Assembly: GCA_027063785.1 (NCBI GenBank)
Contig: JAMORC010000005.1
Location: 1 to 64,000 of the forward strand
Direction: 5' to 3'
Source of the DNA: Desulfurobacteriaceae bacterium
GTDB taxonomy: Bacteria; Aquificota; Aquificia; Desulfurobacteriales; Desulfurobacteriaceae
DNA: 64,000 nt
The translations under genes were made by a program, and so were the position numbers. Positions 18,182-51,918 of this stretch are shown piece by piece (positions within the stretch are counted from its first letter, which is position 1; each line of letters begins with the position of its first letter). Under the pieces are notes generated by a model. The model was not told the origin of the DNA and made no database searches. It saw nothing but the letters and a program-made list of their open reading frames with translations.

Positions 18182-18216
18182 ATTTTGTGCATAACCTATA
18201 TTTGGAGAGGTGGTCG

Positions 18217-20526
18217 ATGGAAGAGCCGAGGATAGGAGTTGTTCTCTGCACCTGCGGTGATGTTCTCAAATCAAAAATAGATTTTGATTCTCTTAAAGCC
18301 TTTGCCGAAAGCCTTCCAGGTGTAGAAAAGGTAATAGTTACAAAGGACTTTTGCAAACAACCGGAAAAACAAGCAGCAGAACTAAAAGGTAGGGTGGATG
18401 CTTTAATCTTCGGGGGGTGTTCCGAAAGGTCGTCACTTCAGTTCAACGAAGACCGCATAGAAAAACTCATGGTAGCTTTGGGTTTAGACCCTGCGGCATG
18501 GGAAACGCTCAACCTGAGGGAACAGTGCTATTACATCCATGACGACGTAGAACAAATAAACAACAAAGTAAAAGACATGCTTTTAATGGCTTACGAAAAA
18601 GTTAAAACGAACGTTCCGGCGTTAAAAGAGGAAAATCTGAAGAAAAAAGTTTTAGTAGTTGGTGGAGGAGTGGCAGGTCAACGCTGCGCTCAAGCTTTAT
18701 CTGATTTGGGAATTGAAACCACGTTAGTTGAAGAGAAACCTTACCTCGGCGGCAACGCAGCGAGGATAGCTTTGCTGTGGCAGTCCGAATCTTCACCGTC
18801 ATTCTGCACAAGCGAGTGTGTAATTCCCGTTGTAGGCAGAGATACAATGATAAAAGATAACATTAAAGTAATGGTTAACTCTGAAATTGCCGGCGTTGTA
18901 AAGGAAAACGGCGATTTCAAAGTGAGAATACTGCAAAAAGCACAAAAAGTTGACCCGGCAAAGTGCATTTCCTGCGGTGAATGTGCAAAAGTATGTCCTG
19001 TTGAAATTCCTAATCCGTTTAATTTGGGTAAAACAAAGAGAAAAGCTATCGATAAAGATTTTCCCCTTGCAATTCCAGACTCTTACAACATTGTTGATTC
19101 AGCCTGCACTAATTGTGGAAAATGCGTAGAGGTTTGTCCGACAAACGCTATAGACCTAAACGCCGAAGATAAATACGTCGAAGACGAATTCGGCGCAATT
19201 GTGATAGCTACAGGAATCGGCGGGAAGGATATGAGTGCCTATGAAGAACTGGGATACAAGTATCCTGAAGTTGTAACGCTATTTGAATATGAAAGATACG
19301 TAGCAAACAACTTTTTCGGAAGAAAACCGAAAGAAATAGCCTTTGTTTTATGTAAAAAAGATGATGTGGGTTACTGTTCAAGACTTTGTTGTCTTGCTAC
19401 CGTTAAGGTAGCAGCAATACTTGCCAAAAATCATCCGGATGTGAAGGTGAAAGTCTTTTACAGAAGTTTGAGAACGACGGGAAGAGCGTTCGAAGAACTG
19501 AGAAGAAGAGCCGAAAAAGGCGGCGTTGAATTCATAGAAGAGGTAATAGAAAGGATAGAAAAGGACGAGAACGGAAGGCTTCTAATTAAAGGAGAAAAAG
19601 GAACTTACTCATCGGAAATGGCTGTTTTGGCAGAACCTTTAATTCCGTCTCAAATAAAACTTACCAACATGCTTAACGTTCAAACTGACCAATTCGGATT
19701 TCCTCTGGAATTCCAACCAAGGGTAATTAACCCTATAGAAACATACGTTGAAAGAGTTTTCGTAGCAGGAAGTGCAAAAGGATTCAAAGATGTTCAGGAA
19801 AGTATTGAATCAGGCTTAGGGGCAGCAGTTAGGGTTTATAAGGCGTTAAAAGGGCAGAACAAGAAGTATTACTCGATAATAGACCAGGAGAAGTGTTCAA
19901 GATGCGAAACATGCTTAATGTGCTGTCCCCACGGTGCTATAAGCCTTAAAAATGCTGAAAGTGAAGAAAAAACAATCGTGGAAATAGACCCCAATTTGTG
20001 TAGAGGATGCGGTCTTTGTTACTCAGCATGTCCTTCAAAGGCAATTAAGTTTTCCAACCTCGAAGATGAACAACTAATAAAAATGGCTGAAGTTGCATTT
20101 AAACACCTACCGAAAGACAAGCCGAGAATTCTGGCATTCCTGTGTTACTGGTGTGCATACGGAGCGGCAGACCTTATGGGTATGAAGCTAAAAGAAAAGC
20201 TACCGGAAAACTTTAGGAGCATAAGGGTAAGGTGTTCTGCTTCTTTAAGCCTTGACGTCATAGCCGAAATTATTGAAAGAGATTTGGCTGACGGAATTAT
20301 TGTTGCGGGATGTCCCAAAGATAACTGCCACCACATCTGGGGCAACTACATGCAGGAAAACAGGATAGAAATGTTCAATGAATCCTTAAAAATGTTGGGA
20401 GTGAACGACAAAATCGTTCGCTGGGAGTACATCGGTGTTCCAAACGGTAAGAAACTTGCCAATGCGATAAGGGAAGTTAACGAAATTCTCCTAAAAGTTA
20501 AAGGAGGTAGCCATGTCGAAGCCTAA
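18217..20526 (+). CDS. hdrA: HdrA-like flavin/iron-sulfur subunit fused to an MvhD domain
   Basis: Heterodisulfide-reductase A homologue, a flavoprotein that can bifurcate electrons in methanogens and related bacteria. The FAD motif VLVVGGGVAGQRCAQ is near residue 145. Ferredoxin-type cluster motifs are CISCGECAKVCPVE, CTNCGKCVEVCPTNA, CSRCETCLMCCPHG and CRGCGLCYSACPSK. The C terminus (from about residue 635, FLCYWCAYGAADLMG) is an MvhD/FrhD module that links HdrA to hydrogenase. I choose ATG 18217, preceded by GGAGAGG. It overlaps the hydrogenase small-subunit gene by 14 bases. HdrB and HdrC are missing from the window, so the second electron acceptor is unknown. Confidence 0.92.
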   Translation: MEEPRIGVVLCTCGDVLKSKIDFDSLKAFAESLPGVEKVIVTKDFCKQPEKQAAELKGRVDALIFGGCSERSSLQFNEDRIEKLMVALGLDPAAWETLNLREQCYYIHDDVEQINNKVKDMLLMAYEKVKTNVPALKEENLKKKVLVVGGGVAGQRCAQALSDLGIETTLVEEKPYLGGNAARIALLWQSESSPSFCTSECVIPVVGRDTMIKDNIKVMVNSEIAGVVKENGDFKVRILQKAQKVDPAKCISCGECAKVCPVEIPNPFNLGKTKRKAIDKDFPLAIPDSYNIVDSACTNCGKCVEVCPTNAIDLNAEDKYVEDEFGAIVIATGIGGKDMSAYEELGYKYPEVVTLFEYERYVANNFFGRKPKEIAFVLCKKDDVGYCSRLCCLATVKVAAILAKNHPDVKVKVFYRSLRTTGRAFEELRRRAEKGGVEFIEEVIERIEKDENGRLLIKGEKGTYSSEMAVLAEPLIPSQIKLTNMLNVQTDQFGFPLEFQPRVINPIETYVERVFVAGSAKGFKDVQESIESGLGAAVRVYKALKGQNKKYYSIIDQEKCSRCETCLMCCPHGAISLKNAESEEKTIVEIDPNLCRGCGLCYSACPSKAIKFSNLEDEQLIKMAEVAFKHLPKDKPRILAFLCYWCAYGAADLMGMKLKEKLPENFRSIRVRCSASLSLDVIAEIIERDLADGIIVAGCPKDNCHHIWGNYMQENRIEMFNESLKMLGVNDKIVRWEYIGVPNGKKLANAIREVNEILLKVKGGSHVEA

Positions 20527-21463
20527 ATTTGCTTATTACTTAGCCGGCGGATGCGCCGGATGTGATACGTCATTAGTGGATACTTCGAAGAAGTTAGTGG
20601 AATTTTTGGAAAACGTTGAGTTAGTGTTTTTTGCACCGACAATAGCGGACTTTAAATATAAAGATTTAGAAGCGCTTCCGGACAATTCTATAGATTTCGG
20701 GTTTTTCAGCGGAAACGTTAGAAGTTCGGAGCATGAGCACATAGCAAAATTAATGAGAAGAAAATGTAAAACGCTTGTCGCTTTCGGTATATGCGCAAGT
20801 TTAGGCGGAATAAAAGGACTCGTTAATCTTCATTCACAAAAGGAGCTTATGGAAAAAGCTTATGTTGATACTCCTTCAACGGACAATCCAGAAAAAATCC
20901 TCCCCACCCCCCACTGCACCGTTGACGGCAAATACGACCTTGAACTGCCCGTTCTTAAACCGGCCAAAGCGTTAGACCAAGTAGTAGAAGTTGACTACTA
21001 CGTCGGCGGATGTCCGCCGTCTTACGGCCACATTAAATGGATTCTAGAAAAGCTGTTGTCTGGTGACCTACCGCCTAAAGGCAGCTGGCTTACAATGGGT
21101 AAAGCCGTCTGTGACGTTTGTCCCAGAAACCCCATAAGACACGGCGGTATCAAAAAACGCCCAACAGAAGTTAAAAGAGTTTTGGGTGAAATGCCGGAAG
21201 ATGTCTGTTTACTTGAAGCAGGTTACCTCTGCCTCGGACCTGTAACCTTGGGCGACTGCGATGCAGCATGTTTGAAAGTAAACATTCCATGTAGGGGGTG
21301 CGGCGGTCCAATACCGGGAGTGAGGGACTTCGGCGTTAAAGCCATAAGCACCATAGCTACAGCTATGGGAAGCCTTGATGCCCTCAAGAAAGTTCCAGAC
21401 CCAATGCACCTGTTCTACAGGTACAGCTTGCCGAAATCATCGGTACTTAAACCAAAAGAATAG
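20513..21463 (+). CDS. mvhG: [NiFe]-hydrogenase small subunit, MvhG-like (group 3c)
   Basis: Electron-transfer subunit of a cytosolic hydrogenase. Proximal-cluster ligands appear in GGCAGCDTSL, FGICASLGG and VGGCPPSYGHI; further cysteines in VCDVCPRNP, CLGPVTLGDCDAAC and CRGCGGPIPG supply the other two [4Fe-4S] clusters. No twin-arginine signal is present, so it is cytoplasmic. The length of 316 fits MvhG/VhuG. ATG 20513 follows AAAGGAGG. It passes electrons to the MvhD end of the adjacent HdrA fusion. Confidence 0.92.
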   Translation: MSKPKFAYYLAGGCAGCDTSLVDTSKKLVEFLENVELVFFAPTIADFKYKDLEALPDNSIDFGFFSGNVRSSEHEHIAKLMRRKCKTLVAFGICASLGGIKGLVNLHSQKELMEKAYVDTPSTDNPEKILPTPHCTVDGKYDLELPVLKPAKALDQVVEVDYYVGGCPPSYGHIKWILEKLLSGDLPPKGSWLTMGKAVCDVCPRNPIRHGGIKKRPTEVKRVLGEMPEDVCLLEAGYLCLGPVTLGDCDAACLKVNIPCRGCGGPIPGVRDFGVKAISTIATAMGSLDALKKVPDPMHLFYRYSLPKSSVLKPKE

Positions 21464-21475
21464 TTGGAGGAAGCG

Positions 21476-22933
21476 ATGAGAAAGGCCGAAATAGAACCAA
21501 TCACAAGACTTGAAGGTCACGGCAAAATAACAGTTTTCCTTGACGATAACGGAAACGTTGAAAATGCCTTCCTTCAAGTTGTCGAATTTATGGGATACGA
21601 AAAGTTCCTACAAGGAATGCCCATAGAAGAAGTTCCGAGAACCGCAAGCACTATTTGCGGTGTTTGCAGAGCCGTTCACTTCTCTGCGGCTTTAAAAGCC
21701 GCCGATCAAATATTTTCCGCCGAACCCCCTCCTGCGGCAAAGAAAATCAGAGAACTCCTGCTTTTGGCCCATCACGTAGAAGACCATACAGAAATTCTTT
21801 ACGCGTTAGGTTTACCAGATTTCATTTGCGGACCGACAGCACCGCCTCAGGAAAGAAACTTAATTGGCGTGGCTAAAAAGGTAGGAAAGGAATTGGTAAA
21901 AGACGTTCTCCAAAAACGCTTCTCTGCGGCAAAAATAGTAGAAATTTTAGGCGGCAAACCTGTTCATCCCGTTGCTGCAGTGCCGGGCGGTTGGTCCAAA
22001 AAGGTAACCGAAGAGGAAAAAGCCGAAATAGAAAAGCTTTCCGATGACCTTTTAGAACTCGGGAAGATGACGGTTGAACTGTTTAAAGAAGTTGTAGTTA
22101 AAAACCCCGAATACTCAAAACTCCTGAAAGAGGAAAGCTTTAACGTTGTTACAAACTATATGGGAACGGTTGACGAAAATAACAAGGTTACCTATTACGA
22201 CGGCACCCAAGTAGTTGTATCCCCGGAAGGCAGGGAAATAGTCAGGTTCAAAGGGAAAGAATACTTAGACGTTTTAGCAGAAAAAACGCTTCCTTGGAGC
22301 TATGCTAAATTCCCATATCTCAAACGGAAAGGCTGGAGAGGGCTGGAAGACGGAAAAGATACTCACCTGTGCAGTGTAGGACCTTTGGCGCGATTCAACG
22401 CTTCAGACGGTTATTCAACACCTTTAGCCCAAAAAGCGTACGAAGAAATGATCGAGTTCTTCGGAGAGAAACCAGTCTACAACATTTTCGCCTACCATTG
22501 GGCAAGGGCAATAGAAATTCTTAACCAGGCGGAACTGATAAAAGAACTGCTTAAATCACCGGAGCTTACAGACGAAAAAGTTGTAACACCTCCGGGTAAA
22601 GTTACCGGTGAAGGCGTTGGAATTATCGAAGCGCCAAGGGGAACGCTCATTCATCACTACCGGACAGATGAAAACGGACTCGTAACAGACGCCAACCTGA
22701 TAGTGCCGACCACCATAAACAACGGCTCAATTCAGGTAGCTGTAAGAAAAGCTGCAAAATATTTCATCAAAGACGGTAAAGTTGACGAAGGGACTCTTAA
22801 CCTGATAGAAATGGCTCACAGACCTTACGACTTGTGTTTAGCCTGTGCAACCCACGCTTACCCGGGACACTATCCTACAAACGTTATTATCTATAAAAAC
22901 GGCAAGAGAATAAAGGAATTGAGGAACTATTGA
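21476..22933 (+). CDS. mvhA: [NiFe]-hydrogenase large subunit, MvhA-like (group 3c)
   Basis: Carries the NiFe active site. The N-terminal ligand pair is TICGVCRAVH near residue 57 and the C-terminal pair is CLACATH near residue 461, preceded by D-L rather than the usual D-P. About 25 residues follow the His; these are expected to be cut off by the maturation protease encoded next. I prefer ATG 21476, just after GGAGGAAGCG; a TTG at 21464 precedes that site. Both C-terminal ligands are ordinary cysteines here, unlike the selenoprotein HydA elsewhere in the window. Confidence 0.92.
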   Translation: MRKAEIEPITRLEGHGKITVFLDDNGNVENAFLQVVEFMGYEKFLQGMPIEEVPRTASTICGVCRAVHFSAALKAADQIFSAEPPPAAKKIRELLLLAHHVEDHTEILYALGLPDFICGPTAPPQERNLIGVAKKVGKELVKDVLQKRFSAAKIVEILGGKPVHPVAAVPGGWSKKVTEEEKAEIEKLSDDLLELGKMTVELFKEVVVKNPEYSKLLKEESFNVVTNYMGTVDENNKVTYYDGTQVVVSPEGREIVRFKGKEYLDVLAEKTLPWSYAKFPYLKRKGWRGLEDGKDTHLCSVGPLARFNASDGYSTPLAQKAYEEMIEFFGEKPVYNIFAYHWARAIEILNQAELIKELLKSPELTDEKVVTPPGKVTGEGVGIIEAPRGTLIHHYRTDENGLVTDANLIVPTTINNGSIQVAVRKAAKYFIKDGKVDEGTLNLIEMAHRPYDLCLACATHAYPGHYPTNVIIYKNGKRIKELRNY

Positions 22934-23388
22934 AAATAGTAGTTGTAGGAATTGGAAACCCCTCTTTCGGAGACGATGGGGCAGGGTTTGAAGTCATCAA
23001 GAAATTAAAAAGGAAGGTGGCTGCGTGCCACCTTCTTTCTCCTTCTCTTGAACTCTTAGAGAAAATCAAAAGTTACGATTTAGCAATCTTAGTTGATGCC
23101 GTTGATATAGGGTTAAAACCCGGTGAAGTGATTGAGTTTTCAATTGAAAAGGGAAAAAACAAAGAGCGCTTCGGCGGTTTAACCCACACCCTTTCAATGG
23201 AAGAAATAGTTACGACCGGTTACGAACTCTTTCCCGACGAAATGCCCCAAAAAGTCATCTTCATCGGTATTCAGGTGGAAGGCATACTGCCTTTCACGAA
23301 GGGATTGAGTCTGCCTGTTAAAAAAGCAGTTGAAGAAGTTGCAGATAGAATCGAATGTATTTTCGGGAGGACTTTGAAAACTTTTTAA
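22930..23388 (+). CDS. Hydrogenase maturation protease (HycI/HyaD family)
   Basis: A 152-residue endopeptidase that removes the C-terminal peptide of the large subunit after nickel insertion. The start VVVGIGNPSFGDDGAGFEV has the GxGNxxxxDDGxG signature with the metal-binding acidic residue, and ILVDAVDIGLKPG holds the second. The TTG start overlaps the mvhA stop by four bases, so it most likely serves MvhA. A terminator-like hairpin lies inside the gene. Confidence 0.9.
   Translation: MKIVVVGIGNPSFGDDGAGFEVIKKLKRKVAACHLLSPSLELLEKIKSYDLAILVDAVDIGLKPGEVIEFSIEKGKNKERFGGLTHTLSMEEIVTTGYELFPDEMPQKVIFIGIQVEGILPFTKGLSLPVKKAVEEVADRIECIFGRTLKTF
23013..23040 (+). other. Terminator-like hairpin inside the hydrogenase protease gene
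   Basis: GAAGGTGGC (23013-23021) pairs perfectly with GCCACCTTC (23027-23035) across the loop TGCGT and is followed by TTTCT. It sits about 85 bases into the protease coding sequence. It may lower expression of the protease relative to the hydrogenase, or be chance. Confidence 0.4.
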
Positions 23389-44536: not shown

Positions 44537-44827
44537 GTGAAAACTGCCGAGGAACTTAGGAAGCTCCTGTTAGAGGAGAATGAGCTGTTGAAAAGCATAC
44601 TTTCGAAATCTGCAATTTCAAAAGAGGTTCTCGGGAAACTTAGTGATATACAGAGCAGGAAACGATCTCTTCTGGAGGCTCTGAAAAAAAACCTTCCTGA
44701 AACGCCGTCTCTTGAAACCTTAAAGGAGATTCGTTCGCTCGCTGCTGCCAACAGAAAGCTGGTTACACAGCTTGTCAGGCAAATTACTTTTTCCGCTTTG
44801 CTCTTTCTGCCAGGAACTTCCTTTTAG
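44537..44827 (+). CDS. Small coiled-coil protein, possibly FlgN-like
   Basis: A 96-residue helical protein (LRKLLLEENELLKSILSK; IQSRKRSLLEALKK). The pattern of leucines and the E-x-x-L-L...K-x-x-L spacing resembles FlgN-type flagellar chaperones, but the resemblance is weak. GTG 44537 has GGAGG a few bases upstream. The 3' end overlaps the convergent Ech-type ferredoxin gene by 44 bases. The opposite-strand frame in the same place lacks a ribosome-binding site and looks like a shadow. Confidence 0.6.
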   Translation: MKTAEELRKLLLEENELLKSILSKSAISKEVLGKLSDIQSRKRSLLEALKKNLPETPSLETLKEIRSLAAANRKLVTQLVRQITFSALLFLPGTSF

Positions 44828-45185
44828 ACTCCTCTGCTTTCCTCTCTATTAAGTTCCATTCCGGTATATCTTGAGCTACCGCCGGTTCTGCCGTGTTCTC
44901 GACTTGAGTTAAGCATCCGGGTTTCGGACAGGCCCTTACGCACTCTCCGCAGTAGATGCATAGGTAAGGGTTATAGTGAAATTCCTTCTTTCCGTTATCC
45001 TTATAGGTGAACTTAATAGCTCCCGGAGGACAGACCATTTCACACTTGGTGCAAAATATGCAGAGGCTCTCATCGTAGACTATGAGTCCCCTGTAGCCGA
45101 TTGGAGGAGGAGAAGGTTCTTCGGGATACTTAACGGTAACGGGCTTTGAAAAAAGGTTTTTAATAGTTGCCTTTAACATTTCCTT
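44784..45185 (-). CDS. Ferredoxin-like subunit of membrane-bound hydrogenase (EchF/NuoI-like)
   Basis: Two [4Fe-4S] motifs, CIFCTKCEMVCPPGA and CIYCGECVRACPKPGC, in a NuoI/EchF-like protein of about 133 residues. It takes electrons to or from the small subunit. I prefer TTG 45185 after GGAGGTG, or ATG 45179; a longer upstream frame would run deep into the cytochrome gene. It is the last cistron of the 10-kb hydrogenase operon and overlaps the cytochrome gene by 26 bases. Confidence 0.88.
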   Translation of the reverse strand, partial: KEMLKATIKNLFSKPVTVKYPEEPSPPPIGYRGLIVYDESLCIFCTKCEMVCPPGAIKFTYKDNGKKEFHYNPYLCIYCGECVRACPKPGCLTQVENTAEPAVAQDIPEWNLIERKAEESKRKFLAERAKRKK

Positions 45186-45504
45186 CAAGGCTTCCACCTC
45201 CGATGAGCTTGTTGAGAATTTCCGAGTTTTCAAGTCCTTTGTGACATTTAACGCACTTCTGGATAACTTTGTGGGCAGGTGATAAGGAGAGAACTTTTTT
45301 ATAGTCGTGACACTCAAAACAGTCGGCACCGCATCCCGACTCTAAAGGCTTTTCATCGTGTTCAGAGTGGCACTGAGTACAGGTCTTCAAAACGGTGTGG
45401 TTTTCGTCCTTGGGAATGTTTATGTGACACTGATAGCAGTCACTGCTACAGGGAAATGCCGAAAAGGGTAAAAGCAAGAAGATTAAAATCAGTACTCCCA
45501 TCAT
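45160..45504 (-). CDS. Exported tetraheme cytochrome c
   Basis: Signal peptide of about 17 residues (MGVLILIFLLLPFSAF), then four heme-binding CxxCH motifs: CYQCH, CTQCH, CFECH and CVKCH, with spare His residues for axial ligation. The mature protein is about 95 residues and should be periplasmic or membrane-tethered. ATG 45504 or 45501 follows GCGAGGTG. It lies between the large subunit and ferredoxin subunit genes of an Ech-type hydrogenase, which normally has no cytochrome. The partner is unknown; it might link the membrane complex to a periplasmic donor or acceptor. Confidence 0.9.
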   Translation of the reverse strand: MMGVLILIFLLLPFSAFPCSSDCYQCHINIPKDENHTVLKTCTQCHSEHDEKPLESGCGADCFECHDYKKVLSLSPAHKVIQKCVKCHKGLENSEILNKLIGGGSLEGNVKGNY

Positions 45505-46589
45505 CACCTCGCCGTGCAGGACAAGCAAGGATCAAAGCTTATTACGGTTGCAGGAACATCGGAATAGTCCATACCTATAAACAGTTTTTTCATAACGGGA
45601 ATATTGGCAAAGGTGGGAACCCTTATCCTTACCCTGTCAAGAACCATTTTCTTTGTCCCTTTTATGTAGTAAAAAAGCTCTCCCCGTGGAGCTTCAACCC
45701 TCACGAAAGTTTCTCCTTCGGGAAGTCCCTTTACCGGCACCTTTATTTCACCTTCCGGAAGTCCGTCAAGGACGTTCTTCACCATTTCTATTGAATTTAT
45801 TACCTCCTCAGCCCTTACCAAGTTCCTGTCGTAGATATCTCCTCCTCTCCTAGTAATAAGTTTGAAACCGACCTCTTCAAAAGGCAGGTAGTTAAACTCA
45901 GCCCTTACGTCGGTTTCAAGACCGGCCGCCCTTGCGGGAGGTCCTACAACGTTCATCTCCTTAGCCATCTCCTTCGTAACAACACCGACCCCTTTCCACC
46001 TAAGGTTAAGCGAGAAGTCGTTTTCAAAAACATCTTTCAACCAGAGGCATTTTTCCTCAAGCTCTTTAAGCTTTTTCCTTATTTCCTTTTCAAGTTCGGT
46101 CGTCATATCCCTGTTAACGCCTCCGGGGCAAACATAGTCAAACTGAACTCTGTTTCCCGTTATAAGCTCCAGAAGCTCCATTACAGATTCTCTGTACCTA
46201 AAAGTCTGCATAAAGAGGTTTTCGTAACCGGCAACCTCGGCGGTATGTCCCATTGCAAGGAGGTGGGAATGTATCCTGTCAAGCTCGCTGACCAGAACTC
46301 TCAGGTAGAGTGCCCTTTTCGGAACTTCAACCTCCATAAGCCTTTCGATGGCCGTAACGTATCCGAGGGTATGGGATATGGCACAAAGGCCGCAGACCCT
46401 TGCGACAACGTAGCCGACCTGCATATACTTAAACCTTGTTGAGCAGGCCTTCTCAATGCCCCTGTGGACGTATCCCACGTCCACCTCAACGTCGACTATC
46501 CTCTCGTTTTCTGTCTGAAAAACGAACCTTACAGGTTCGGGAAGTGCAACGTGCTGACTTCCGAAAGGAACGGTTATCCTCTTTCCCAT
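45504..46589 (-). CDS. Membrane-bound [NiFe]-hydrogenase large subunit (EchE/NuoD-like, group 4)
   Basis: Related to NuoD but keeps the nickel ligands: RVCGLCAISH near residue 65 and DPCLSC near residue 355, so it is a hydrogenase, not a complex I subunit. The protein ends only three residues after the last Cys (TAR), with no cleavable C-terminal peptide, unlike MvhA and HydA in this window. Cytoplasmic side of the membrane complex. ATG 46589 is one base after the EchD-like stop. Confidence 0.93.
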   Translation of the reverse strand: MGKRITVPFGSQHVALPEPVRFVFQTENERIVDVEVDVGYVHRGIEKACSTRFKYMQVGYVVARVCGLCAISHTLGYVTAIERLMEVEVPKRALYLRVLVSELDRIHSHLLAMGHTAEVAGYENLFMQTFRYRESVMELLELITGNRVQFDYVCPGGVNRDMTTELEKEIRKKLKELEEKCLWLKDVFENDFSLNLRWKGVGVVTKEMAKEMNVVGPPARAAGLETDVRAEFNYLPFEEVGFKLITRRGGDIYDRNLVRAEEVINSIEMVKNVLDGLPEGEIKVPVKGLPEGETFVRVEAPRGELFYYIKGTKKMVLDRVRIRVPTFANIPVMKKLFIGMDYSDVPATVISFDPCLSCTAR

Positions 46590-46590
46590 C

Positions 46591-46935
46591 TTAACCTCTC
46601 CTCAGCGGTGCCTTTGGACTATCGGGGTCAAGGAAAAGTCCTTTCTTGGCTCCTTCTACTTTCAAATCGAAAAGATCTGCAAGTTCCCACTCGGCAATCC
46701 ATGCGGAGGGGATAAGGTAGGTAATTGTCGGAATTTCATCGTCGTAACCGGCTTCTGCCGTAACGACTTTAAAAGTTTCTTTCTCTCCGTACTTACAGAA
46801 AAACCACTTCAGCTCAACCTTTCCGCCTAAATCCGTCCCGTTGACGGTTATAAAGTGCCAGACATTAGGGTCGTAAAATTCCTTTATTGTCCTCCTCACT
46901 TCCCTCAGGGGGACTTTAACTTCTTCTACCCGCAT
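46591..46935 (-). CDS. Membrane-bound hydrogenase subunit (EchD/NuoC-like)
   Basis: A 114-residue NuoC-type subunit. WHFITVNGTDLGGKVELKWFF and ITYLIPSAWIAEWELADLFD resemble the NuoC core (late motif usually ending with ERExxDxFG). It is short, as in Ech and Mbh complexes. It overlaps the EchC-like gene by 20 bases. The assignment rests on both sequence and position. Confidence 0.85.
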   Translation of the reverse strand: MRVEEVKVPLREVRRTIKEFYDPNVWHFITVNGTDLGGKVELKWFFCKYGEKETFKVVTAEAGYDDEIPTITYLIPSAWIAEWELADLFDLKVEGAKKGLFLDPDSPKAPLRRG

Positions 46936-47446
46936 TAATCACCTCCAAACACCTCTCAAGGAGTTTCCTCCTGTTGAGCTTCTCTCCCTCAGGAACTTTG
47001 CAGTAAGGCGGGAGTTCTATTTCCTTTTTCTTTTTCTCAAGAATTTCAAGGGCTTTTACAACACCGTCTATTATCGATTCAGGCCTTGCAGCACAGCCGG
47101 GGACGTAAACGTCAACGGGAATAATGGAATCAACGCCGTTTTCGACGTTATACATGTGCCTGAAGACTCCCCCGGTGCAGGCGCACGCTCCGACGGCAAC
47201 TACAACCTTAGGTTCAGGCATCTCAAAGTAAAGCCTGAGAAGCCTTTCCTTTGCCCTCTTTGTTACGGGGCCCGTCACGAGGAGAATGTCGGACTGCTTG
47301 GGGTTACCCCTGTTGAGAATTCCGAACCTTTCAAGGTCGTATTTAGGTGCAAGACAAGCAAGGATTTCAATATCACAGCCGTTACAACTTCCGGTGTTAT
47401 AGTGGAGAATCCAGGGAGACTTTTTCCTGAATTTCTTTAACTCCAT
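46916..47446 (-). CDS. Membrane-bound hydrogenase small subunit (EchC/NuoB-like)
   Basis: NuoB-family subunit with the proximal [4Fe-4S] cluster: NTGSCNGCDIEI near residue 20, VGACACTGG near 83 and YVPGCAARPESI near 113 supply the cysteines. The length of 176 is typical. The start directly abuts the EchB-like stop. It connects the NiFe subunit with the ferredoxin subunit. Confidence 0.92.
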   Translation of the reverse strand: MELKKFRKKSPWILHYNTGSCNGCDIEILACLAPKYDLERFGILNRGNPKQSDILLVTGPVTKRAKERLLRLYFEMPEPKVVVAVGACACTGGVFRHMYNVENGVDSIIPVDVYVPGCAARPESIIDGVVKALEILEKKKKEIELPPYCKVPEGEKLNRRKLLERCLEVINAGRRS

Positions 47447-48286
47447 TTAACCCCTCCAGAGAGCAAGTAGCATAAGGTTTATCACGACAAGAGGAATGAG
47501 AACATACCAGTGAAAGGCGACCATTTGCCTGAAGTTAACCCTTGCAGTAACGTTATCCAGCAGGTTAAAGAAGAAGAAGGCAAAGAGAACAAGAAAAGCA
47601 CCGAGGAGATGATTGCCGCCGCCGAAAAGGAAAATCAAGAAAAAGACGTAAACGTATTCAATCCACTTTGCCGTATAGACAGCTTCATAGAACTTACCGG
47701 AGTATTCGATTTCGGGACCGCCGATTATCTCCTGGTGAGCTTCTGCAATATCAAAGGGAGACTTTTTCAAGAGAGTGGGGAGAGAGAGGAGAATCGAGAC
47801 AAAGACAAGCGGAAGTACAAAGAGGGGAACCTCATTTGAATTAAGTATCTCAGAAATCTGAAAAGTTCCGGTAACTAAGTAAAGCCCGGCGGCAGTCAAA
47901 ACGTAAAGGGGTTCGTAGGCAACCATGTGGAGAAGCTCTCTCATCGCTCCCAATATCGAGTATGGAGAACGGACGCTAAAACCACCCACCACGAGAAAGG
48001 CCAGAGAGAGAACGTGGAAAAATATTGCGATGAGGAGGTCCCCACCCGAAAGGAGGACATAAAGAGAAAACCACGTTCCCACTAAATACATAATTCCCAT
48101 AAAGGCGTGGAAAGAGTGGATAACGATGGAACGTTTATCCATAAGTTTCAGGAAATCGTAAAAGGGTTGAAGAACCGGAGGTCCAACTCTTCCCTGCATT
48201 CTTGCCCTGACAACCCTTTCAAGCCCGTAGATAAATCCGCCGATAACGGGAGAAAAAAGTGTAAAGACGAGAGCCTCCCAGTTCAT
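47447..48286 (-). CDS. Membrane-bound hydrogenase membrane subunit (EchB/NuoH-like)
   Basis: A 279-residue polytopic protein of the NuoH/HycD family with about seven or eight hydrophobic segments. Family motifs include RMQGRVGPPVLQPFYDFLKL at the first loop and SPFDIAEAHQEIIGGPEIEY near residue 180, the Glu-rich loop linking quinone/hydrogenase modules to the ion channel. The ATG overlaps the NuoL-like stop as ATGA. Confidence 0.93.
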   Translation of the reverse strand: MNWEALVFTLFSPVIGGFIYGLERVVRARMQGRVGPPVLQPFYDFLKLMDKRSIVIHSFHAFMGIMYLVGTWFSLYVLLSGGDLLIAIFFHVLSLAFLVVGGFSVRSPYSILGAMRELLHMVAYEPLYVLTAAGLYLVTGTFQISEILNSNEVPLFVLPLVFVSILLSLPTLLKKSPFDIAEAHQEIIGGPEIEYSGKFYEAVYTAKWIEYVYVFFLIFLFGGGNHLLGAFLVLFAFFFFNLLDNVTARVNFRQMVAFHWYVLIPLVVINLMLLALWRG

Positions 48287-50142
48287 ATCAGGCCACCTCC
48301 GAGAACGAGAGTGATAATGAAGAGGGCAACTGCCGCCGTTTCAATGAGGGGCTCAACCTGGGAAACGCAGAAGAAGTTGTAAGTTCCCAGTGTCGTCTCT
48401 ACCCTTTCTCCACAGGTATACTCGTAAACCCTGTCAACCTCCGGAAAGTGAACAAAGTAGGCAAAAATCGGAACTATTAAGAGGAGGATAAAAGCTCCGA
48501 TAATCTGCCAGCCGTAAACTTCCGAAAGAGGAGTAATCAGAGTAAGGCCGGAAGCTTTAACCGGAGCCGGAGATGAAGATATCGAAGCAACAACAGCATT
48601 TACAAAATCGGCAGAGAGGTGGGCTATGAAAATTGAACCGACTATCGTAAAGAGGGCAAGAAGCCCTGCTGTAGAAAGGTAAATAAAGGGCAGTTTCTCG
48701 AGCTTAAAGCGCATAAATTCACCCCTTTTCCTTGTCATAACGCCGATAACCTTAAAGTAAAGGAGGGTCAGGATTACGCTGCCGGTAGCGATGAAGATAA
48801 TTGAACCGACGTAAGCGCCGTGGGAGAGGAAGTTTGAAGCTTCTTCAAGGGTAAGCCACTTGGCCATAAAGATTCCATAAGGAACGATTGTCATACTCAT
48901 AAAGCCGATGGAGATAAAGACAACCGTTATCGGAGCTTTCTCAACAAGACGCCTGATTTCCTCTATGTACTTTGCCTTAAAGAGCTTCTCTATAACGCCG
49001 GCTTCCATAAAGAGGAGGGCCTTGACAACTGCGTGAAAGAGTATCAGGAGAAGAGAAGCCAGAACGGCAGTAGGACTTCCCATGGAGGCCGTCAGCATCA
49101 TAAGGCCGAGGAGGGAAATCGTAGAGTAAGCAAGGATTTTCTTGAAATTATCCTGGGTAAGGGCAAGTAACCCCGCAGAAACGAAGACGAAGCCTGTTGT
49201 AACGATTAAGAGCTTTGCGAGGAGCGTTCCTTTTATTACCGGAGAAAGCCTTAGTATCAGGTAGGGGGCTATCTTAACCATCGTTGCAGAGTGGAGAATT
49301 GCACTGACGGGAGTCGGAGCTACCATCGCACCAAGGAGCCAGCGATGAAACGGCATCTGGGCTCCTTTAACGAGGGCTGCAATGGCAAGAAATCCCAGCG
49401 GGATCATCGACGTAACGGCAGGGTTAACCTTTAAGATATCTGTAAAGCTGTAAACGCTGTAGTACTTTATGCCGAAGAGGAGTGCAAGGAGAATTGCTAT
49501 CCCCCCTATCTGGTTCATCCAGAGGGCTTGGAGGGCGTTCGAGATGGAAACCGAATCCCACCTGAACCTGATCAGCACGTAAGAGGCAAGCGTTGTTGTC
49601 TCAAATAGGGCAAAGAACCATTCGACATTGTTAACAGAGACCGCAAAGTTCATAACGCCAAGAAACCAAAGAAGCGCGGCAACGAAACGGTTTTCCCTGT
49701 CCAGATCTTCCTGCTCCATGTACTTGGTGGCATAGATGCAGATCAGAGAACCGACAGTTGCGACGATGAAGTACATAAAAGTAGTGAGGCCATCAACGTA
49801 TATGGGCGGGGTTTCCCCGTGAGGGATAATAAGGAGAACCCAGGAGAGCAGAAAAAGCTGGGCAGCGGCAAGAACGGAAACGAGGAAGTTCCTGAACTTT
49901 ATCCCCTGATAGAGGAAGTAGAGAAGAAGTCCGTAATCAAAGAGAGTAACGGCGAGATTTACCCATTCAGGAGGCGTAATGAAAAGCGGAAGCTTTAAGT
50001 TCCAGACCTTGAAAGAGAGGTAGGTTAGAATCGGGAAAGAGAGAAAAGTAATGAGCTGTCTCAACCTGTGAAAGGGAGAAACAAAGACGAGGAGTGCAAG
50101 GAGCCAGGGAAGCAAGAAGAGGGAATAAATCACCTTCTCCAT
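48283..50142 (-). CDS. Membrane-bound hydrogenase antiporter-like subunit (EchA/NuoL/HyfB-like)
   Basis: A 619-residue protein with many transmembrane helices, of the Mrp/NuoL antiporter family, expected to move protons or sodium. Conserved spots include VNNVEWFFALFETTTLASYVL with its membrane Glu, LVKGAQMPFHRWLLGAMVAP (the Lys of TM7 and the PFHxWLxxAM signature) and ILHSATMVK. The lateral helix of full NuoL is not evident. The start overlaps the cNMP-binding gene by 13 bases. Confidence 0.92.
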   Translation of the reverse strand: MEKVIYSLFLLPWLLALLVFVSPFHRLRQLITFLSFPILTYLSFKVWNLKLPLFITPPEWVNLAVTLFDYGLLLYFLYQGIKFRNFLVSVLAAAQLFLLSWVLLIIPHGETPPIYVDGLTTFMYFIVATVGSLICIYATKYMEQEDLDRENRFVAALLWFLGVMNFAVSVNNVEWFFALFETTTLASYVLIRFRWDSVSISNALQALWMNQIGGIAILLALLFGIKYYSVYSFTDILKVNPAVTSMIPLGFLAIAALVKGAQMPFHRWLLGAMVAPTPVSAILHSATMVKIAPYLILRLSPVIKGTLLAKLLIVTTGFVFVSAGLLALTQDNFKKILAYSTISLLGLMMLTASMGSPTAVLASLLLILFHAVVKALLFMEAGVIEKLFKAKYIEEIRRLVEKAPITVVFISIGFMSMTIVPYGIFMAKWLTLEEASNFLSHGAYVGSIIFIATGSVILTLLYFKVIGVMTRKRGEFMRFKLEKLPFIYLSTAGLLALFTIVGSIFIAHLSADFVNAVVASISSSPAPVKASGLTLITPLSEVYGWQIIGAFILLLIVPIFAYFVHFPEVDRVYEYTCGERVETTLGTYNFFCVSQVEPLIETAAVALFIITLVLGGGLI

Positions 50143-50615
50143 TGTAAACCTCCCGGAACCGAGAAGAATCCGCAGACCTGAGAGAATTTCATGTCTTCCG
50201 ACTTGAGTCTCTCAGAGAGGATTTTGACTATAAGCTCTAAGAGTTTAAGAAGAACAGAAGGAGCTTCCTCCTTTAAGCAGGAAAAGCTCTTCCTATCAAT
50301 CCTGAAAGCTTTCACTTTCGACTCTGCAACAGCCCGTAAAGAGTGAGGCTTACCGAGGAGAAAAGCACATTCTCCGAGGGGCGTTCCTCCGTAAACAACG
50401 GCTATTTTCGTCCACCTGCCGAAGTTATCGCTCCTGTAAAGGCCGACCTTACCTTCCTTTAAAAGGTAAAAGGCATCTGCCGGGGAAAATTCATCAAAAA
50501 GAATTTCTCCTTCCTCAAAACTCACCCTCTCCAGATAGCAGGAAAGGATTTCTTTCTCTTCATCGCTCAGGCCTTCGAGAAGCCTGCACTCCTCAATCTC
50601 CCTCCTGTCTATCAC
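50130..50615 (-). CDS. Cyclic-nucleotide-binding-domain protein without DNA-binding domain
   Basis: A 161-residue protein with one CRP-like beta-roll (LSDEEKEILSCYLERVSFEE, then LLKEGKVGLYR and the phosphate cassette PLGECAFLLGKPHSLRA). No helix-turn-helix follows; the last 50 residues are a helix and short tail. So it is probably a ligand-sensing regulator of protein activity rather than a transcription factor. The GTG start at 50615 (AAGGAGG upstream) lies within the read-through tail of hydA. It sits exactly between two hydrogenase modules. Confidence 0.85.
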   Translation of the reverse strand: MIDRREIEECRLLEGLSDEEKEILSCYLERVSFEEGEILFDEFSPADAFYLLKEGKVGLYRSDNFGRWTKIAVVYGGTPLGECAFLLGKPHSLRAVAESKVKAFRIDRKSFSCLKEEAPSVLLKLLELIVKILSERLKSEDMKFSQVCGFFSVPGGLQWRR

Positions 50616-51918
50616 GATTCCTCCTTATCCTTACCGTTTCAAACTTTCCACCAAACTGGTGGACTGCACAGGCTATTCAGGGGTCGTAAGCCCTGACGAG
50701 CATTTCCGCCCGCTTTTTAAGCTCGGAATCGGGGAGATGCAGGTCTTTTTCAACGAGGGAAGCAAGGTTTTCCTCTATAACGGCCTGAAGCTGAGCCGTC
50801 GGCGTAATTATGTTTGCTCCGATGCACCTGCCGTTTTCATCAAAAGCGTAACGGTGGTAAAGGGTTCCCCTCGGTGCTTCCTTTACTCCGTAACCTTCAC
50901 CCTTTTTCGGCTCAAGGGGAACTTCCGGTTCAAAGGGGTAAGCGTTAAGCAACCTCTCTACGGTTTCGATACCGAGAAATCCGGCTTCCAGTAACTCAAC
51001 TGCCCTGGCAAGGTTAGAAAGGAACGGATTACTGGAAGGGAGAGCATTCTTGAGCTTTTTGATTTCCTCTTTCACGGAGGGATGGTAGGAATCTAAAGCC
51101 CTATTGACTCTTGCCAAGGGTCCGATTAGAAAGGCTTTTCCTTTAATTGTTGACCTTTTGGCAGTGCTGTAAGGAGAAACCTCCTCTTCTACAAAGAATT
51201 CATACTCTCTCTTTGTAAAAACTGTTCCGTCGGAAATCTCTAATTCTTCGCAGAGAGAGCCGAAATGTCCTCCTTTTAGTGAAAGTTCATAATTATGGGG
51301 TGAGTTAGCCTCAGGATAGTTGAGGGAATCGAAGAGCGAAAGAGTTGCCTTCAGCTCCGGAATAATCCCGTAAAGGTCATCCCTTATCCTCTCAAGCTGT
51401 TCTTTTTCCGGAATCGATTTAAAACCGCCGGCAAGGACGTTTTCGCCGTGAACGGTCTTGCCGGCTATTGTCTTCATTATCCGGTTGCCTACCTCTTTTA
51501 TTGCAAATCCCCTCTTAACAATGTTGGGGTAATCTTTTGCCATCTCTATTGCACTGCCGTAGCCCATGTAATCAGGAAGTGCTAAGAAGTAAAGGTGAAG
51601 GGCGTGGCTCTCAAGGTATTCTCCGACTATAAGGAGCTTCCTGAGAAGCTTTATCTCTTCCGTAACTTCAACGCCAAAGGCGTCCTCTATCGCCATAGAA
51701 GAAGCAAGCCTGTGGGAAACGTAGCAGATACCGCAGATTCTCGAGACGATTTTCGGAATTTCTGTGTAGAGCCTTTCTCTGGTTATGTATTCAAAGAACC
51801 TCGGGCCTTCGGTAAACCTGAGTCTTATCTCTTTCAAGGCACTACCGTCGATAACTATGTCAACGGCACCGTGCCCTTCCACTCGCGAAAGGTGGTTAAC
51901 GTTAAGCTCCCTTTTCAT
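50593..51918 (-). CDS. hydA: [NiFeSe]-hydrogenase large subunit HydA (group 3b sulfhydrogenase), selenoprotein
   Basis: NAD(P)-linked hydrogenase catalytic subunit. N-terminal nickel ligands are in SRICGICYVSH near residue 63. The frame reaches LVRAYDP and then TGA at codon 414 (50677-50679); the frame continues I-A-C-A-V-H, giving DPU-x2-C-x2-H, the C-terminal nickel motif with selenocysteine for the first Cys. A 7-bp hairpin follows (see SECIS). Read-through ends at TGA 50593, leaving a 21-residue tail after the His, as expected for protease processing. ATG 51918 follows GGGGAG. The order hydB-G-D-A equals that of Pyrococcus hydrogenase I. Annotation software would likely truncate it at the TGA. 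Confidence 0.9.
50647..50679 (-). promoter_or_regulatory. Selenocysteine UGA codon and bacterial-type SECIS hairpin
   Basis: On the transcribed strand, UGA is followed by 13 bases and then UCCACCA-GUU-UGGUGGA (50663-50647): a perfect seven-base-pair stem with an apical loop holding G-U. The apical loop is about 20 bases after UGA, within the usual range for SelB-dependent insertion in bacteria. No selA, selB, selC or selD is in this window. Confidence 0.8.

Follow-up and report, generated by a model that had tools for sequence, protein, structure and literature searches.

A hydrogenase module with HdrA fused to MvhD and no dedicated HdrBC pair found: a candidate H2:ferredoxin oxidoreductase of Desulfurobacteriaceae

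We analysed a hydrogenase gene module located at positions 18,217 to 23,388 of a 64,000-nucleotide stretch (hereafter the window; contig JAMORC010000005.1, assembly GCA_027063785.1) from a vent bacterium of the Desulfurobacteriaceae, whose genome of 1.57 Mb is 98.9% complete in 63 contigs. The module codes for an HdrA protein fused to MvhD, followed by MvhG, MvhA and a maturation protease. We tentatively propose, with a probability of about 0.42, that it forms a self-contained cytosolic H2:ferredoxin oxidoreductase, independent of HdrBC, which would feed the reductive tricarboxylic acid (TCA) cycle. The proposal draws on sequence comparison: the gene content, the failure to find a dedicated HdrBC, the conservation of the ligands for electron input and ferredoxin output, the alteration or loss of the HdrBC exit of HdrA, and a module history unlike that of the candidate partners.

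The sequence-only reading of the window had described an HdrA-like protein with four ferredoxin motifs, fused to MvhD and followed by MvhG, MvhA and a protease. Open reading frames (ORFs) and family scans bore this out with exact coordinates (Table 1). The four CxxCxxCxxxC motifs are present in HdrA (Cys 250-260, 297-307, 560-570 and 595-605), together with two cluster sites that had not been listed, one N-terminal and one of the CC type (Cys 379/387/391/392). Pfam matches exceeded the cut-offs for FlpD/MvhD (2.9e-33), Oxidored_q6 of MvhG (5e-20), NiFeSe_Hases of MvhA (5.7e-30) and HycI (1.9e-12). The best NCBIfam matches, HdrA2 (2.9e-153), VhuG (4.3e-52) and VhuA (3.1e-107), were all three under the curated cut-offs, with HdrA reaching 511.8 bits of the 1100 set for NF040770 (HdrA2), and the protease was over that of TIGR00072 (4e-27). 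The C-terminal MvhD fusion is the one found in type Ia HdrA. Genome-wide profile searches gave one FlpD domain and one full-length HdrA match. The mvhG, mvhA and protease genes overlap or touch, and for hdrA-mvhD a GTG at 18187 is an alternative to the ATG at 18217, the latter being preceded by a purine-rich ribosome site, GGAGAGGTGG. Family membership of the genome follows from MvhG, which is 97% identical to that of a Desulfurobacteriaceae metagenome-assembled genome, its nearest named relative. A promoter and terminator scan gave fewer matches than in shuffled sequences and was not used.

The module had also been read as devoid of HdrB and HdrC, and a search of the whole genome had been suggested. 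No hdrB- or hdrC-like gene was found in the window, and no dedicated hdrBC pair in the genome, where a gene lying in a gap between contigs is possible. A genome scan for the CCG domain (HdrB type) gave six matches in three proteins: FrdE1 and FrdE2, encoded by the last genes of two divergent frdA-frdB-frdE fumarate reductase operons on contig C63, and a GlpC-like protein on contig C57, in which a Fer4_8 domain is fused to two CCG domains and whose gene adjoins that of a PyrK-like flavoprotein. The Fer4_8 scan gave 13 matches, six of them over the cut-off (the GlpC-like protein, FrdB1, FrdB2, HdrA, the beta subunit of a sulfhydrogenase encoded in the window and one match on contig C9); no dedicated HdrC was recognised among them, the C9 match and the seven weaker ones not having been followed. 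Ten genomes carry the module, and around it tblastn with three HdrB, three HdrC, FrdB1/2 and FrdE1/2 queries found no such gene in any of them, in stretches of 11.7 to 64 kb (with flanks of only 2.7-4.3 kb at locus L027). The same search recovered hdrC and hdrB of the two control loci, L029 and L032, and its two hits in carriers were the ferredoxin domain of HdrA itself. The nearest CCG gene on the module contig of any carrier lies ~12 kb off (genome G004) and codes for a homologue of the GlpC-like protein. The claim of a missing HdrBC module thus stands for the module, for a dedicated pair elsewhere in the genome and for the surroundings of the module in nine relatives, but not for HdrB/HdrC-like proteins as such, which exist in two fumarate reductases and the GlpC-like protein, so that a borrowed high-potential partner is possible.

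We then compared the cluster sites of HdrA with those of characterised enzymes. In HdrA, electrons leave towards ferredoxin by the inserted ferredoxin domain via the N-terminal cluster, which takes Cys197 from the other HdrA, and towards HdrBC by the iron-sulfur cluster of the flavin domain (PMC9012536). The window HdrA possesses the flavin adenine dinucleotide (FAD) domain, two ferredoxin domains, the N-terminal cluster and, in Cys201, the residue that aligns with the bridging ligand Cys197. The N-terminal, inserted, C-terminal and MvhD clusters together have 26 positions that are putative ligands, and each of these is Cys in all ten sequences. At the HdrBC-exit site, whose exact ligands we take to be the four Cys of Table 1, numbers that fit the HdrA alignment, 3 of 40 cells are not Cys, and these fall in two sequences: one Cys is lost in genome G022 (L049) and two in G026 (L050). 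The four-Cys cluster is thereby present in the window and seven relatives, its spacing being shortened in all ten. The stretch from R360 to C387 is 14 residues short in every carrier, and alignments with five solved HdrAs open query gaps there as well. The shortening is not a mere trait of the HdrA2 type: in the fragments placed on the HdrA2 profile, which is not shortened, 38 model positions (357 to 395) are spanned by 23 residues (363 to 386). An AlphaFold2 model of HdrA from a 4-row alignment had a mean predicted local distance difference test score of 56.3, too poor for use.

Table 1 Features of the HdrA-MvhDGA module (positions in the window)
Feature	Position	Strand	Basis or remark
HdrA (HdrA2/type Ia-like)-MvhD fusion, 769 aa from ATG	18217..20526	+	ORF, Pfam, NCBIfam
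HdrA residues 184-201, W[QH]SE[SY]xPSxCT[ST]xC in 10/10	18766..18819	+	replaces canonical DKTFPTxDCSxC before bridging Cys
Inserted ferredoxin domain, 8 Cys, usual exit to ferredoxin	18964..19137	+	8/8 Cys invariant in 10/10
Stretch R360-C387	19294..19377	+	28 residues in 10/10 carriers vs 42 in canonical HdrA of L032
Non-canonical [4Fe-4S] site Cys379, 387, 391, 392, flavin domain, normal exit to HdrBC	19351..19392	+	alignment
Lys397, corresponding to K409 close to FAD N5, a proposed mark of bifurcation	19405..19407	+	K in 10/10
C-terminal ferredoxin domain with 8 ligand Cys, receiving electrons from MvhD	19894..20031	+	8/8 invariant in 10/10
MvhD domain, five conserved Cys	20113..20523	+	FlpD match residues 648-768; Cys invariant in 10/10
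MvhG, hydrogenase small subunit	20513..21463	+	ORF, Pfam, NCBIfam; 14-base overlap with hdrA end
MvhA, [NiFe] hydrogenase large subunit, group-3c-like	21464..22933	+	Pfam, NCBIfam, L1 motif STICGVCRAVH
MvhA C-terminal nickel-ligand motif DLCLACATH	22829..22855	+	sequence
25-residue C-terminal MvhA peptide, presumably protease-removed	22856..22930	+	relatives L049, L050 end at preceding His
Hydrogenase maturation protease, 152 aa	22930..23388	+	Pfam, NCBIfam

The module was found in 10 of the 24 genomes of the order, and in no others among the 101 of the class searched or the 136 of the phylum. The order hdrA-mvhD, mvhG, mvhA is kept in all ten carriers and the protease gene follows in eight. 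In the MvhA tree the carriers form one clade beside Thermodesulfobacterium hydrogeniphilum (99/99), in which G022 and G026 make up a sub-clade (99/99). T. hydrogeniphilum is not resolved from the carriers by MvhG, and the case for a single origin therefore comes from MvhA. With a distant sequence as root, the tree of HdrA shows G022 and G026 as separate long branches.

The history of the module was compared with that of the possible partners by pairwise distances, the Frd regions having been fetched for 14 of 23 relatives and the tests run on eight carriers (G038 and G026 not used). HdrA distances correlated strongly with those of MvhG (0.95) and MvhA (0.96). Correlations were 0.82-0.92 among FrdA, B and E inside operon 1 and lower inside operon 2 (E-B 0.85, A-B 0.56, A-E 0.52). 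Those of HdrA with the Frd proteins were 0.25 for FrdE1, 0.35 for FrdB1, 0.08 for FrdE2, 0.20 for FrdB2, 0.46 for FrdA1 and 0.07 for FrdA2. On seven carriers (G034 was dropped, its contig being cut inside the gene) the GlpC-like protein followed Frd operon 1 (0.84-0.87) and not HdrA (0.07); in the same seven, HdrA gave -0.01 with FrdE1, -0.36 with FrdE2, 0.18 with FrdB1 and -0.29 with FrdB2. No column of the Frd proteins separated the eight carriers from five non-carriers (13 genomes including our own, with G014 and G026 left out as diverged or unlinked), a test of little power since shuffled labels also gave hardly any columns (means 0.04-0.08). The co-occurrence of FrdABE with the module is uninformative as support for a pairing: of the six non-carriers fetched, five have both operons and one has diverged pieces. 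Some carriers share genes flanking the module (L028 and L047, L046 and L049 and, in part, L027, L044 and L045), and elsewhere the flanks differ. The simplest reading is that the module is a cassette, possibly a horizontally moved one, with its own history and not that of any HdrB/HdrC-like host protein.

In the mechanism that we propose, MvhA would split H2 and the electrons would pass through MvhG, MvhD and the C-terminal ferredoxin domain to the FAD of HdrA, then by way of the N-terminal cluster to the inserted ferredoxin domain and on to ferredoxin, which, once reduced, would drive those carboxylations of the reductive TCA cycle that depend on it. A dedicated HdrBC would be unneeded, and the old HdrBC exit would be an altered arm, being lost in at least one sub-lineage. 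We infer the direction of flow, the product, the physiological role and a linear rather than bifurcating transfer. By our own Nernst estimate the H2 couple lies at ~-0.48 V at 75 °C, pH 7 and 1 bar H2, so that at high H2 ferredoxin could plausibly be reduced without assistance, the transfer being close to equilibrium. The alteration of HdrA at the HdrBC exit supports the earlier reading of a module without HdrBC. That reading had left the high-potential acceptor unnamed; a missing acceptor is not implied, as an enzyme confined to electron transfer from H2 to ferredoxin would fit the pattern too.

Several observations weigh against an HdrBC-independent enzyme. The window HdrA and seven of the nine others keep all four HdrBC-exit Cys across ~70% identity, which suggests selection, and the exit-losing lineage is one clade in the MvhA tree, so that the loss may be essentially one event. 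The residues K409 and E356, proposed as marks of bifurcating HdrA (61 and 87 of 401 HdrAs are without them, respectively; PMC12054007), both have equivalents in the window, K397 and E359; the former is conserved in 10/10 carriers and the latter is E in seven and Q in three. The history test is weakened by the partial sharing of neighbouring genes among some carriers; L046 (G002) and L049 (G022), of one genus, have the same module neighbours, yet their HdrAs are 63% identical and belong to different sub-clades. The two Frd operons, taken as a control, also fail to match one another (FrdA1-FrdA2 -0.21, FrdE1-FrdE2 0.40), so that non-matching distances alone do not prove independent transfer, and a partner present in every host could serve without co-evolving. 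Finally, the membrane-hydrogenase-type genes of the host could also reduce ferredoxin.

The main rival, which we consider rather unlikely, is bifurcation onto fumarate. HdrA-MvhAGD would dock in trans on FrdB-FrdE in place of HdrC-HdrB, one flavin coupling H2 oxidation to the reduction of fumarate and ferredoxin, both steps of the reductive TCA cycle. FrdE1 and FrdE2 are about as HdrB-like as the HdrBs of hdr clusters: on TIGR03288 they scored 184.9 and 208.5 bits, compared with 223.6 (L029), 190.8 (L030) and 205.0 (L032), all five being below the cut-off of 345. Among solved structures both are closest to HdrB chains (9.4e-41 and 3.3e-51, respectively), and one stretch of FrdB1 is HdrC-like (5e-5). 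No CCG protein other than FrdE1, FrdE2 and the GlpC-like protein was found in the genome, the window HdrA retains its exit cluster and the two flavin residues, and fumarate (+30 mV, as quoted in PMC12724263) would be a strong acceptor. On the other hand, FrdE2 scored better on the SdhE model of 8-methylmenaquinol:fumarate reductase (NF042965, 289.0 bits, against 179.4 for FrdE1; the cut-off of 500 was not reached) than on that of HdrB, and FrdB1 is nearest to SdhB/FrdB (2.2e-40). The Frd genes are unlinked to the module in every carrier stretch searched, FrdABE also occurs in non-carriers and CCG proteins in all 24 genomes of the order, the exit cluster is eroded in two of the ten carriers, the histories of HdrA and Frd do not match and no carrier-specific Frd residue was seen in the low-power test above. 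In the model published for a relative, Frd receives its electrons from menaquinol (PMC12724263). As a separate observation, in the second family of the order the FrdE/HdrB-like gene is not on the contig that carries frdB (L075:4257-5099 and G026:C17:20076-21008), and its neighbours are unrelated genes.

Bifurcation through the altered exit onto another acceptor, such as the GlpC/HdrD-like protein of contig C57, NAD(P)+, a quinone or a thiol/disulfide carrier, also appears unlikely, slightly more so than fumarate. In the C57 protein the domains are arranged as in HdrC followed by HdrB, its homologue in G004 stands ~12 kb from the module, and the exit cluster is kept in 8/10. The distances of the C57 protein, however, track Frd operon 1 and not HdrA, its best families are lactate dehydrogenase LdhH (288 bits), TfrB (245) and GlpC (161), all below their cut-offs, and the module has no NAD(P)- or quinone-binding subunit. 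Both bifurcating schemes stay in play chiefly because the exit cluster of the window is intact. Group 3 hydrogenases are commonly bidirectional, and the module might conceivably run in reverse as an H2-evolving safety valve for reduced ferredoxin. This we hold to be very improbable, the relative Thermovibrio ammonificans being described with H2 as sole electron donor (PMC5441870). For an assembly artefact or a decaying cassette, which we regard as hardly credible, no favourable point was found: the four genes are intact, and the hdrA-mvhG-mvhA order recurs in the ten carriers, in G002 within one contig.

The candidate H2:ferredoxin oxidoreductase was compared with the closest known systems. 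It resembles the electron-bifurcating HdrABC-MvhADG of hydrogenotrophic methanogens (5ODC/8RVU) in the HdrA cluster sites (8.7e-100 to 5odc_A), the FAD residues, MvhD, MvhG and MvhA, but differs in the dedicated HdrB and HdrC not found here, the fused MvhD, an exit stretch ~14-15 residues shorter and D-L-C in MvhA. The HdrA-MvhD fusion is shared with HdrA2 (type Ia) of Methanosarcina acetivorans HdrA2B2C2, the best NCBIfam match of the window HdrA, whereas HdrA2 partners HdrB2C2 and F420H2 (PMC5296606). T. hydrogeniphilum (L029) is the closest relative outside the family among the matches examined (MvhG 68%) and shares D-L-C and the protease gene that follows; unlike the window, it has hdrA, hdrC and hdrB directly upstream of mvhGA, with an HdrA unfused to MvhD and a canonical exit stretch. 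In the canonical L032, too, hdrC and hdrB adjoin hdrA. Where Cys197 would be encoded, hdrA of T. hydrogeniphilum carries an in-frame TGA (L029:6690-6692; DCSA-TGA-IITPKM), probably for selenocysteine, which has been reported in some archaeal HdrAs (PMC12054007, PMC11291895). FrdB and FrdE of this genome share HdrC/HdrB-like domains with thiol:fumarate reductase TfrAB and SdhE/MfrE-type fumarate reductases, although they belong to separate operons on another contig, outside the module. For T. ammonificans, Hyn, Frh-like, Hyd and Ech hydrogenases are described and heterodisulfide reductase is marked as missing, 'Hdr?' (PMC5441870); for D. thermolithotrophum HR11, HydBCDA, Ech, Hyn and an [FeFe] enzyme, with two fumarate reductase operons whose subunits are more abundant at low H2 (PMC12724263). 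No description of an HdrA-MvhDGA module was recognised in the literature searched, mostly titles and abstract openings with few subscription journals.

The nickel-ligand motif of MvhA had been read as D-L-C instead of D-P-C, and the C-terminus of the protein, RPYDLCLACATH followed by 25 residues, confirms it. The L1 motif of group 3c [NiFe] hydrogenases, ICGxCxxxH (PMC6085437), is present as ICGVCRAVH; at L2 the window has PYDLCLACATH in place of AYDPCxxCATH, with both Cys and the His kept, and we accordingly term MvhA group-3c-like. D-L-C is a trait of the clade, found in the ten carriers and T. hydrogeniphilum. As the latter has hdrC and hdrB adjoining, the motif does not go with the absence of HdrBC and was rejected as a sign of altered function. 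MvhA of G022 (L049:10675-12060) and G026 (L050:5355-6770) ends exactly with the His that follows the final Cys ligand (CSTH/CATH), and no protease gene was recognised in these two modules. Their termini place the presumed cleavage point of the window MvhA after 22855, and D-L-C is kept even in a protein made without the C-terminal peptide. The sub-clade with the pre-trimmed MvhA is also the one with the eroded HdrBC-exit cluster.

Other hydrogenases are encoded in the genome. The window contains a group 3b-type sulfhydrogenase large subunit (50593-51918, minus strand; best matches ShyA/HydA, below cut-off) in which an in-frame TGA (50679-50677) falls exactly on the codon of the first Cys in the C-terminal motif of nickel ligands, DP-U-IAC-AVH. 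The TGA occurs in 14 of the 18 full-length orthologues of the order, our own included, and is TGT or TGC in the other four; a hairpin-forming CCACCAGTT[TC]GGTGG, also coding conserved residues, lies 3' of the TGA in all 14, and the genome has a tRNA-Sec (83.4 bits). The protein is very likely a selenocysteine-containing [NiFeSe] group 3b hydrogenase, of which no published description was found in a limited literature search. Downstream of its operon lies a membrane hydrogenase/complex I-like cluster (44784-50142, minus strand) with a NuoD/FpoD-type large subunit; the two resemble the Ech-Hyd pair of HR11 (PMC12724263). A group 3a-like (FrhAGB-type) hydrogenase adjoins hypF in the same genome (L026:5190-8024; FrhB_FdhB_C match), and such an enzyme is reported in T. 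ammonificans, which is without F420 synthesis genes (PMC5441870).

The module bears on the way in which strictly anaerobic bacteria with a reductive TCA cycle make low-potential ferredoxin from H2. If FrdB and FrdE were borrowed by the module, hydrogen, ferredoxin and fumarate chemistry would be joined in one enzyme. If the module is HdrBC-independent, as we tentatively favour, HdrA would be a freestanding H2-to-ferredoxin device, and the sub-lineage with the eroded exit would be a natural experiment on whether its flavin must bifurcate.

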